From Flavobacterium pallidum (GTDB taxonomy: Bacteria; Bacteroidota; Bacteroidia; Flavobacteriales; Flavobacteriaceae): 64,000 nucleotides of DNA. Location: the NCBI RefSeq assembly GCF_003097535.1, contig NZ_CP029187.1:372001-436000 (forward strand), written 5' to 3'. Position numbers and translations under genes: made by a program. Position 1 is the stretch's first letter, and every line of letters starts with the position of its first letter. The notes beneath the pieces are model-generated. The model was not told the origin of the DNA. It made no database searches and saw only the letters and a list, made by a program, of their open reading frames with translations. Shown piece after piece: positions 12,166-49,307 of the stretch.

Positions 12166-12173
12166 TATTTTTG
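12166..12173 (+). promoter_or_regulatory. -7 box of the O-methyltransferase gene
   Basis: TATTTTTG fits TAnnTTTG and lies 15 bases before the ATG at 12189. No TTG at proper distance was found. Confidence 0.4.
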
Positions 12174-12188
12174 CAAAAAATACTAAAC

Positions 12189-12830
12189 ATGCATTTCCTA
12201 TCCGACGACCTCGAAAATTACATCGAACAGCATTCAGAAAAAGAGCCTGAACTGTTGGCAAAACTCAACAAGGAAACCTATCAGAAAATTTTACTCCCGC
12301 GGATGCTCAGCGGGCATTTCCAGGGACGCGTATTAAGCATGCTTTCGAAACTCATCCGCCCGAAATCGATACTGGAAATTGGCACCTATACCGGTTATGC
12401 GACGCTTTGCCTTTGCGAGGGATTGCAGGAAAACGGCGTCACGCATACCATCGATATTAAGGAAGAACTGATGGATTTCCAGCGGAAATATTTTGATGCA
12501 TCGCCGTGGGGAAACCAGATCGTCCAGCATTTGGGCGAGGCTTTGGATATTATTCCTGAAATTGACACGAAGTTTGACCTGGTTTTTATCGATGCGGACA
12601 AGGAAAATTACATCAATTATTACAACATGATTTTACCGAAGATGAACAAGGGCGGCATCATCCTGTCGGATAATGTATTGTGGAGCGGAAAGGTTGTACA
12701 GGAATTGCAGCCGAATGACCTAAGTACGAAAGTGCTTTTGGAATACAATGCCTTATTAAGGGACGACCCGCGTGTAGAGACGGTTTTACTGCCTATCAGG
12801 GATGGACTGACGGTGAGTCGGGTACTCTAG
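12189..12830 (+). CDS. O-methyltransferase (COMT-like, class I SAM)
   Basis: This 213-residue protein matches the bacterial relatives of catechol O-methyltransferase. The SAM site is in ILEIGTYTGYATLCLCEGL, followed by HTIDIKEE. The metal-binding acidic run is VFIDADKENYINYY, and the second conserved Asp-Asn pair is in LSDNVLWSG. It probably acts in the cytoplasm on a small hydroxylated substrate that the sequence does not identify. The ATG at 12189 is the start. An upstream in-frame TTG lies inside the -7 box and is unlikely to be used. Its TAG stop is also the first three bases of an intergenic structured element. Confidence 0.92.
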   Translation: MHFLSDDLENYIEQHSEKEPELLAKLNKETYQKILLPRMLSGHFQGRVLSMLSKLIRPKSILEIGTYTGYATLCLCEGLQENGVTHTIDIKEELMDFQRKYFDASPWGNQIVQHLGEALDIIPEIDTKFDLVFIDADKENYINYYNMILPKMNKGGIILSDNVLWSGKVVQELQPNDLSTKVLLEYNALLRDDPRVETVLLPIRDGLTVSRVL

Positions 12831-12932
12831 CCCCGATGGGAGCAACCCGAGCGAAGCGAACTGGCAAAGCACATCCTTTTTCCCGCTGCTGCCAGCAGGG
12901 AAAAGATATAGCGGACAGCGGAAAATAGCTCC
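12828..12932. repeat. Structured intergenic element, copy A
   Basis: The element begins at the stop codon of the O-methyltransferase gene. Its ends pair (GGAGC 12839-12843 with GCTCC 12928-12932). Inside, a hairpin joins CTTTTTCCCGCTG (12876-12888) with CAGCAGGGAAAAG (12893-12905), and the motif AGATATAGCGGACAGCGG follows. The motif is shared with copy B, and in part with copies C and D elsewhere in this window. Confidence 0.75.
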
Positions 12933-19828: not shown

Positions 19829-19910
19829 GCGTTAGCGATTAAAGCGAAAAGCCCACAGCGAGGCACGAGCGAGGACTTGCAGCGGAAAGCGCGGGCCGCA
19901 GGCAACGCCC
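19829..19910. repeat. Structured intergenic element, copy C
   Basis: The arms GCGTT (19829-19833) and AACGC (19904-19908) are complementary. The right part AGCGGAAAGCGCGGGCCGCA (19881-19900) closely matches the right part of copy D at 49246-49307, and the left part GCGTTAGCGATTAAAGC matches its left part. It begins 29 bp after pepE. Confidence 0.75.
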
Positions 19911-19997: not shown

Positions 19998-19998
19998 G

Positions 19999-20071
<73 letters not shown>

Positions 20072-44899: not shown

Positions 44900-45892
44900 A
44901 TGAAAACAACATTACTTTCACTATTTTCACTTATTACAGCCGCAGCGTCAGCTCAGAGCGTGGCGAGTTACTACGGAGACAACAATACGGCTTATACTTT
45001 ATTTTCCGCGGTAGTACCTCTAGACCATTCCGCTACAGGCGCAAATCAAACATGGAATTTCAGCGGCCTGACAGCTACAGGTAATGTGGTAGATGTTGTA
45101 GGCGCTCCTACCGGTCCTGAAGCCACAACCTATCCCGGAACTACCGGAACATCAACTACATCAGGAACAGAAAACGGGAGTCCGACTACCAGCAAAATTT
45201 TTTCAAAGGATGTCGCCGGGGCCATTTCTGTTACAGGTGTTGCCAGCGACGGATTGATTCTTAATTATTCTGCTGACAATGCTTCAGTAGGGACATACCC
45301 TCTCGCCTTCGGTTATTCAAATAGCGACAGCGTTGCAGGAACTTTTACTTATACCACTTACAGCGGCACATTCTCCGGAAATGTAACCACCACAGTCGAT
45401 GCCTATGGTACTTTGACATTAGATCCGGGACCTGACAACATGAATGTAGTGCGTATAAAAACAACACAAACGATTGACCTGTTTTACCCTCCGTTTGGCG
45501 ATGTAGGGGATGTAATCATTACCAGTTACAGTTATTATGAAGCCGGAAGCAATTCGCCTTTGTTCAGGACTGCAACAACAACGATGGTCGTGGCTTTGCT
45601 GTCAATCAACCAGACAAGGACGAGGGTTGAAATCATGAGTTCAGCACTTGGCCTTGATGACATGAACAGGAATACAGTACAATTGCTGCCAAATCCGGCG
45701 CAGGATGTATTGCATGTCGTGTCTGATGGAAATCAAACAGTGCGTTTGATCCGCCTTATCGATATGAATGGCAGGATTGTTTCACAATCCTCTGCGTCAA
45801 GCATGAATGTTTCGCAGCTGCAGAAAGGTATGTATTTTGCTGAAATCACTACTGATTCAGGAACTTTTACGAAGAAGGTGATAAAGCAATAG
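44900..45892 (+). CDS. Secreted protein with type IX (type A) sorting domain
   Basis: This 330-residue exported protein has a signal peptide (about 1-19, ending ASAQ). A Thr/Ser/Gly-rich all-beta middle region follows, with no recognised enzymatic motif. The last 75 residues or so are a type A C-terminal sorting domain: VQLLPNPAQDVLHV, VRLIRLIDMNGRIV, LQKGMYFAEI and the final lysine-rich TFTKKVIKQ. That domain targets the protein to the type IX secretion system. The middle region shows a regular strand pattern only. It could be a surface or extracellular structural protein. Confidence 0.85.
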   Translation: MKTTLLSLFSLITAAASAQSVASYYGDNNTAYTLFSAVVPLDHSATGANQTWNFSGLTATGNVVDVVGAPTGPEATTYPGTTGTSTTSGTENGSPTTSKIFSKDVAGAISVTGVASDGLILNYSADNASVGTYPLAFGYSNSDSVAGTFTYTTYSGTFSGNVTTTVDAYGTLTLDPGPDNMNVVRIKTTQTIDLFYPPFGDVGDVIITSYSYYEAGSNSPLFRTATTTMVVALLSINQTRTRVEIMSSALGLDDMNRNTVQLLPNPAQDVLHVVSDGNQTVRLIRLIDMNGRIVSQSSASSMNVSQLQKGMYFAEITTDSGTFTKKVIKQ

Positions 45893-45917
45893 CAAGGGCG
45901 AGCCATTATAAAATTTC

Positions 45918-45959
45918 AAATCCCAGATTCCAATGAGTATACATTGGAATCTGGGATTT
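45918..45959. repeat. 18 bp perfect inverted repeat after the type A protein gene
   Basis: AAATCCCAGATTCCAATG (45918-45935) and its exact reverse complement (45942-45959) are separated by six bases. The stem extends imperfectly on both sides. No T run follows, so a simple terminator is not certain. Confidence 0.8.
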
Positions 45960-45976
45960 TGAATTTACGGTTGACC

Positions 45977-46112
45977 GCGCCAGGGATGTAAGCGGCATCC
46001 TTTTGCGGCCGCAGCGCAGCGGAGGCCGTAAAAGATATAGCATTATCAAGGAAAAAGCATCGCTTTTGACGAAGATACCTCACGTAGTGATGCCCGACCC
46101 GCAGGGGGTGCC
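45977..46112. repeat. Structured intergenic element, copy B
   Basis: End arms GCGCC (45977-45981) and GGTGC (46107-46111) pair with one G-T. An inner hairpin joins CTTTTGCGGCC (46000-46010) with GGCCGTAAAAG (46024-46034), then AGATATAGC follows as in copy A. The right half carries two further small hairpins not seen in the other copies. Confidence 0.72.
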
Positions 46113-49245: not shown

Positions 49246-49307
49246 GGCGCTGCCTTCGGCCCGGGCTCTCCGCGGTGCACGGCACCTTGCTTCGATCCCT
49301 AGCGCGG
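49246..49307. repeat. Structured intergenic element, copy D (reverse orientation)
   Basis: GCGCT (49247-49251) pairs with AGCGC (49301-49305). Read on the minus strand the element gives GCGCTAGGGATCGAAGC, a small central hairpin GGTGC-CGT-GCACC, then GCGGAGAGCCCGGGCC, which matches copy C. It ends 20 bp before purT. Confidence 0.72.

Follow-up and report, generated by a model that had tools for sequence, protein, structure and literature searches.

An earlier note on this stretch of Flavobacterium pallidum DNA had described four copies of a structured intergenic element, and had seen in them a fold conserved either in RNA or in extruded DNA. What is this element, and in which of the two does its fold matter? 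We analysed the copies in the window, i.e. the whole stretch of 64,000 nt (assembly GCF_003097535.1, contig NZ_CP029187.1, positions 372,001-436,000, forward strand), in the F. pallidum genome and in related genomes.

The remark in the earlier note that like sequences occur between flavobacterial genes was correct, and the family for which it knew no name was identified by Rfam scans as RF01705, Flavo-1. Matches of at least 27 bits in F. pallidum (n = 111) fall into two layouts, 74 of type I and 29 of type II, with 8 unclear. Type I has the ends AGC...GCT and is the Rfam Flavo-1 form. Type II has GGG/CCC in the core, a covarying outer stem of 5 bp and a side hairpin such as CCC-GCA-GGG, in a proposed three-way junction. 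Common to both is the core: a short stem, a purine-purine (A.G) mismatch, T-A, and a Watson-Crick pair that changes freely, hereafter the free pair. Inward of the core both layouts continue through a 3x3 loop (GAA/GGA) and a G-C/C-G step to one of several exchangeable inner modules. Both also have a variable apical hairpin. The inner modules and the features of the four window copies, with their matches to the covariance model R1 described below, are:

Inner module (a): GGCATCCTTTT...AAAAGATATAGC
Inner module (b): GGAAATCCTTTT...AAAAGATTGYARC
Inner module (c): GGCAGCCC...GGACTAYAGC
12825-12932, plus strand: copy A, type I, canonical Flavo-1 layout; R1 match 12854-12922, E = 2.3e-5
12829-12831 with 12928-12930: P1 of copy A, AGC with GCT
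12833-12835 with 12919-12921: core stem of copy A, CCG with CGG
12836/12918, 12837/12917, 12838/12916: A.G mismatch, T-A pair and free pair G-C of copy A
Within copy A: inner hairpin closed by CTTTT/AAAAG
12844-12871, plus strand: insert in copy A, about 28 nt, ACCCGAGCGAAGCGAACTGGCAAAGCA, read from the sequence
19829-19908, plus strand: copy B, type II; R1 match 19831-19895, E = 0.0067
19829-19833 with 19904-19908: P1 of copy B, GCGTT with AACGC
19835-19837 with 19890-19892: core stem of copy B, GCG with CGC
19838/19889, 19839/19888, 19840/19887: A.G mismatch, T-A pair and free pair T-A of copy B
19895-19903: side hairpin of copy B, GCC-GCA-GGC
45977-46111, plus strand: copy C, type II, interrupted; R1 match 45992-46041, E = 1.9e-4
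45977-45981 with 46107-46111: P1 of copy C, GCGCC with GGTGC, one G.T
45983-45985 with 46093-46095: core stem of copy C, GGG with CCC
Within copy C: inner hairpin CTTTTGCGGCC...GGCCGTAAAAG
46042-46092, plus strand: interruption of copy C, about 51 nt in place of GGACAG, from the sequence and the G073 alignment
46098-46106: side hairpin of copy C, CCC-GCA-GGG
49247-49305, minus strand: copy D, type II, compact; R1 match 49260-49303, minus strand, E = 0.0018
49305-49301 with 49251-49247: P1 of copy D, GCGCT with AGCGC
Within copy D: core stem GGG/CCC, free pair C-G
49260-49252: side hairpin of copy D, GCC-GAA-GGC
Within copy D: short inner hairpin, GGTGC-CGT-GCACC

Inspection of the sequence confirmed all four copies and their positions. 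Model R1 was made from 57 copies, 52 from F. pallidum outside the window and five from G073, the nearest of 379 scored genomes of the genus (19 more were unscorable); none came from the window, and one of the five G073 copies is the counterpart of copy C. When the 64 kb were searched on both strands with filters off, the top four matches of R1 were exactly copies A-D, and the fifth had an E-value of 0.96. The end arms read earlier at 19829, 45977 and 49246 (GCGTT/AACGC, GCGCC/GGTGC and GCGCT/AGCGC) are present. For copy A, other copies support the arm AGC/GCT instead of the proposed GGAGC/GCTCC, and the motif GCGxxAGGGAT, ascribed to all four, is absent there; copy A shows the canonical Flavo-1 layout CTAGCCCCGATGG ... 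GACAGCGGA ... AGCTCC with about 28 nt inserted. Closure of the inner hairpin by CTTTT/AAAAG, claimed for copies A and B, was found at 12828, and also at 45977, but not at 19829. The motifs at 45977 occur in interrupted form, about 51 nt separating GATATAGC from CCCG in place of the usual GGACAG, and the partner of the free pair is therefore gone in copy C.

Several smaller features surround the copies. Copy A shares its first bases with the TAG stop codon (12828-12830) that ends the ORF at 12171-12830. Inserts of the GAGCGAAGCGAACTGGC type lie at nearly the same place within Flavo-1 copies and in both orientations, namely in copy A, in the F. pallidum copy at 549831 (similar insert, same place, by eye) and, as reverse-complement forms, in two copies of genome G374 at 270741 and 277466 (by eye). 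The inner module of copy B, AAAGCCCACAGCGAGG...GAGGACTTGCAGC, had one further F. pallidum occurrence, with 2 mismatches, in a pattern search, and a tRNA-Gly gene (TCC; 19998-20071, minus strand) lies about 90 nt past this copy. Directly before copy C, after an ORF ending at 45892, there is a long near-perfect palindrome, AATCCCAGATTCCAATG..., at 45906-45968, whose weak Rfam match to mir-3145 we judged to be due to chance. The string AGATATAGCGGA occurs 33 times in the 3.55-Mb single-contig F. pallidum genome and its backwards string not at all; at three of the 33 sites (L013, L021, L030) the rest of the element is missing.

Each of ten copy neighbourhoods compared with Rfam matched RF01705, at 42.1 to 80.8 bits. 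A genome-wide search, with 150 of 989 candidates scored, gave 118 RF01705 matches at E<=10 in F. pallidum, and at least 102 of them reach the gathering score of 42 bits. Copy A scored 27.3 bits, under that value, and copies B, C and D had no RF01705 match at E<=1 in the Rfam scan of the window. Since the window copies lie under the Rfam cut-off and other F. pallidum copies over it, the former are divergent or interrupted relatives of the known family Flavo-1. They share its core stem and loops, as R1, made from mostly Rfam-listed copies, ranks them first. Scoring 150 of 3213 candidates with R1 gave at least 120 copies with E<=0.01 in the F. pallidum genome. Thirteen of the copies listed are outside the Rfam list, and when the sequences of all 13 were retrieved, module (c) was present in 12. 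The repeat and the Rfam family have core sequence and stem in common, but the 76-position Rfam consensus is without the type II outer or side stem, and copies with module (c) are missing from the Rfam match list. With type II and a third inner module, the Rfam model therefore spans only part of the family.

Covariation was assessed by shuffles, by slid partners and at orthologous sites. The conserved fold with compensating changes proposed from the four copies proved to be well beyond chance in the pairing of the 57 R1 copies, at orthologous sites and in a test of the type II arms. The patterns used to choose the 57 sequences prescribe some core positions, and evidence comes only from the pairs that they leave unspecified; with this proviso, 95.8% of 741 cells were paired, compared with 82.6% after shuffling and 43-54% with slid partners. 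Both sides had changed in 81 cells, with double changes in 8 of the 13 pairs. Of the 31 unpaired cells, 22 represent the A.G found in type II at the outermost core position. The free pair was G-C in 37 copies, U-A in 8, C-G in 7 and A-U in 5, and never unpaired. Among type I copies, 52 of the 111 were parsed by a strict pattern: the three variable pairs show 13 combinations and are Watson-Crick in 51, 52 and 51 of these 52 (shuffled maxima 30, 35 and 49), the free pair in all 52 (shuffled maximum 35). In type II, examined in a fixed window, the left arm was fully Watson-Crick with its own right arm in 26 of 45 F. pallidum copies and with arms of different copies in 223 of 1980 combinations, while 2000 shuffles gave a mean of 5.5 and a maximum of 12. 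Many of the 19 misses arise because a longer side hairpin shifts the arm beyond the window; in at least two (L107, L130) a matching arm is missing. Calculated as DNA, the minimum-energy fold of copy D is the proposed three-way junction with no excess stability over shuffles (z = -0.48). Copy B as a lone strand showed no excess either and did not give the junction, and two intact elements reached z = -2.6 to -3.3 whichever strand was folded.

Strong covariation and conserved loops containing G.A mismatches are common features of RNA, and they favour the reading that Flavo-1 acts as an RNA, be it an sRNA or a UTR element. RNA stems, however, usually tolerate G.U, which is nearly absent: it occurs in 2 of the 741 cells and in 1 of 450 core cells (together with one A.C; 29 of 111 copies are unparsed there).

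Over 400 kb the F. pallidum and G073 genomes are collinear, with about 79% identity. Alignments were obtained for 24 of 25 F. pallidum copies examined, 16 with a counterpart at the same site and 8 without (by eye); the comparison included one place, 337715, that is no element. Eleven of the 16 shared sites were parsed. Of their 66 pairs, 59 are the same in both genomes and 7 differ at both partners; no pair differs at one partner alone. The parse pattern fixes some letters, and a one-sided change was possible in 33 of the 66 pairs (free, second core and inner); all seven two-sided changes fall among these 33. Five shared sites were unparsed, including a visibly degenerate counterpart (487488), and the unparsed F. 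pallidum copy at 511957 seemingly has A.A at the free pair (by eye). In the window, copy C has P1 GCGCG/CGCGC in its G073 orthologue (alignment), copy D has P1 GCGTT/AACGC and free pair T-A (by eye; unparsed in the analysis of pair changes), and for copy A no counterpart was seen by eye at the collinear site. At orthologous sites the unpaired neighbours change along as blocks, e.g. GGCATCC...GATATAG versus GGAAATCC...GATTGCA, and at site 498816 the apical hairpin is wholly changed yet still palindromic. From these blocks we infer a probable exchange of whole modules, by gene conversion or by insertion anew.

Double changes without one-sided intermediates, the near absence of G.U and the palindromic replacement at 498816 are also what would be expected if template switching, by correcting quasipalindromes, had produced the matching arms without any recognition of the fold. 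Such correction should erase the core mismatch, yet among 22 parsed copies this is A.G in 20, G.A in one and A.A in one (the parser allows A or G only), and it would not exchange unpaired loop letters blockwise. We therefore regard template switching as the source of the matching arms as very improbable.

The genomic placement also bears on the RNA reading. An overlap of more than 25 bp with a gene call was found for 5 of the 111 F. pallidum copies, and in many, whichever way they point, one end is no further than 15 nt from a stop codon. The upstream gene is on the same strand for 28 type I copies and on the opposite strand for 46 (14 and 12 for type II); in the named genomes, copies between same-direction neighbours are sense in 38 cases and antisense in 38. 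No preference for a type of region was detected, the tandem, divergent and convergent regions numbering 55/23/13 with the element and 95/40/28 without it. Replication direction (dnaA lies at 415) showed no preference either, the best strand split being reached in 178 of 300 shuffles. The motif which we take to mark promoters preceded 4 of 111 copies; it was present at the mirror side of 3 of the 111 and in 50 of 780 control pieces. No gene family recurred more than three times among 227 neighbour genes. In an RNA-seq study of F. psychrophilum, Flavo-1 matches are sense or antisense to transcribed regions without distinction, with many outside them (PMC9723704).

With no tie to region type, to gene or replication direction or to a promoter, a DNA element is to be preferred. 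An RNA role of the Flavo-1 repeat is doubtful, and the genome context speaks against the RNA half of the alternative in the earlier note as it does against the Rfam type 'sRNA'. The RNA reading, which the Rfam type and the 2010 description state, can point to Weinberg et al., who class Flavo-1 as probably RNA and not cis-regulatory (PMC2864571), and to several F. psychrophilum 5' transcribed regions that coincide with Flavo-1 matches (PMC9723704). Set against it are the missing orientation preference and promoter motif, the scarcity of G.U and the many copies between divergent genes (21 of 74 in F. pallidum type I), and we consider it improbable. Since 2010 Flavo-1 has stood as a structured RNA with no function assigned, and a 2022 review names it among abundant sRNA families from homology searches (PMC9029176); in searches of open-access literature, mostly at the level of listings, we found no paper treating it as a DNA repeat. 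The window forms are variants below the Rfam cut-off of a known family whose class as an RNA gene is doubtful and whose stems give unusually clean evidence of both sides changing together. If DNA bears the element, Flavo-1 has been annotated as the wrong kind of thing, and a search can begin for the enzyme responsible for moving or rewriting it.

On balance, we favour by a modest degree the reading of the element as a dispersed, modular, REP/BOX-like, hairpin-forming DNA repeat, not an RNA gene, that is spread or homogenised by a putative activity. It is favoured because of the covariation, the lack of ties to transcription or replication and of a promoter motif, and the change of whole modules. 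Observed directly are the mostly intergenic placement in both orientations, the compensation in stems and the whole-module change at orthologous sites. A putative protein would recognise the folded single strand, with the mismatch and the loops as landmarks, and transposition or gene conversion would spread the copies or overwrite them with the sequence of others. Against this reading stand the absence of a transposase or other partner among the 227 neighbour genes, the overlap of 22 of 121 copies in the named genomes with an ORF (simple ORF calling) and the lack of a duplicated target in long-flank windows. A clean empty site with defined ends was not available because the nearest relative is only about 79% identical; G015 and G210, considered for this, are only about 87% identical.

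The 16 of 24 copies found at the same G073 site, despite largely diverged flanks (by eye), also fit selection in place. The copies, having spread long ago, could then be sites in double-stranded or extruded DNA that bind proteins or serve topology, each kept where it is by selection; E. coli BIMEs have been reported as sites of this kind. The absent strand preference agrees with this, as does the position of copies on the outer sides of F. pallidum rRNA operons. It is at odds with the 8 of 24 aligned copies without a G073 counterpart, with modules that differ as wholes between orthologous sites, and with a copy number that varies widely among congeners, from 0 in 3 of 61 genomes to 60 or more in many (top values at least 64). 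We rate such in-place selection as unlikely. At the rRNA operons themselves, minus-strand type II copies lie upstream of all three 16S genes seen (L103, about 1577 kb; L124, about 2571 kb; L033, about 2008 kb) and plus-strand type II copies after two 5S genes (L305, about 1583 kb; L307, about 2014 kb), pointing away from the operon. In two operon pairs the near-identical repeat comes to an end near the element.

The earlier note had named a lack of further copies in related genomes as a refuting result; it did not arise, as 58 of 61 genomes of the genus match Flavo-1 at E<=0.001. A sample of 198 genomes from the phylum gave 22 with a match at E<=1e-6, including 12 that belong to other genera. 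Among the matches listed for an exact two-part pattern of 31 fixed bases are Flavobacterium, Aquimarina, Tamlana, Lacinutrix, Winogradskyella, Chryseobacterium, Kaistella, Pedobacter and Bacteroidales bins; plasmid records gave no match. As a tentative generalisation, for which we see somewhat less than even chances, mobile or self-homogenising folded DNA repeats could be widespread in Bacteroidota and misfiled as sRNA, their single-stranded hairpins recognised by a conserved purine-purine mismatch and loops and their modules exchanged by an enzyme other than a Y1 HUH transposase.

How does the preferred DNA repeat compare with known mobile systems? BOX elements of streptococci are modular mosaics of fixed outer and exchangeable inner parts, and the Flavo-1 repeat is likewise a mosaic, a likeness of layout. 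It resembles MITEs in being non-autonomous, dispersed and foldable; terminal inverted repeats beyond the stems and target duplications were not seen in the flanks, the nearest relative being too distant for clean empty sites. Integron attC sites have complementary boxes, a variable apex, probable folding of one strand and a GTT/AAC core. The Flavo-1 repeat shares the boxes, the apex and the likely one-strand folding, but attC was rejected as GTT/AAC is not kept and arms such as GCGCG, GCGCC and GCAAC occur. Contig 13 of G374 has a run of 13 type I copies within about 92 kb (230-323 kb, L261-L265). They all lie on the minus strand and resemble one another closely in the apical hairpin, and the region contains restriction/STAND-like and weak TIR-like genes. 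Ten proteins of this run were scanned, including a restriction/STAND-like protein, a weak TIR match and a dehydrogenase, and the idea of a cassette array was therefore dropped. A carrier element was considered for five copies near contig ends in G210 and rejected: two of the three ends read enter one shared sequence, which by eye we take to be an rRNA leader.

REP repeats and BIMEs are likewise short palindromic copies in number, intergenic, close to stop codons and without coding capacity. REP repeats have a GTAG or CGTC tag at one end, which was not seen in Flavo-1 copies in a by-eye look. REP/BIME systems are associated with a RAYT (TnpA_REP, Y1) transposase, whereas the F. pallidum genome gave no match to the Y1 domain (PF01797). 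The spreading activity in F. pallidum would thus not be a Y1 (RAYT-type) transposase. Across 61 genomes of the genus, Y1 presence does not follow Flavo-1 abundance: Y1 is missing from 5 of 23 genomes with at least 55 copies and from 3 of 8 with at most 4. In 20 stretches around RAYT-like genes from 18 genus genomes, three contained Flavo-1, and in each of these over 1 kb separated it from the Y1 match. A RAYT/REP origin was rejected, with no Y1 in F. pallidum and the RAYT-like genes of the genus adjoining other palindromes (flanks read in 16 of the 20 stretches). These genes are flanked by a palindrome of the type TAGCGC...GTGC (L281-L299), with 30 pattern matches in the 87 kb of those stretches and none in 763 kb of F. 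pallidum, and it is probably their own REP. According to a 2018 survey, RAYT subclass 2.6, mostly from Bacteroidetes, is flanked by atypical structures (PMC6006769), and we take the TAGCGC...GTGC palindromes to be probably of this kind. The string CCCGATAGC.GCGGA is common to the RAYT-flanking palindromes and Flavo-1 (by eye), and the two may have a distant common origin.
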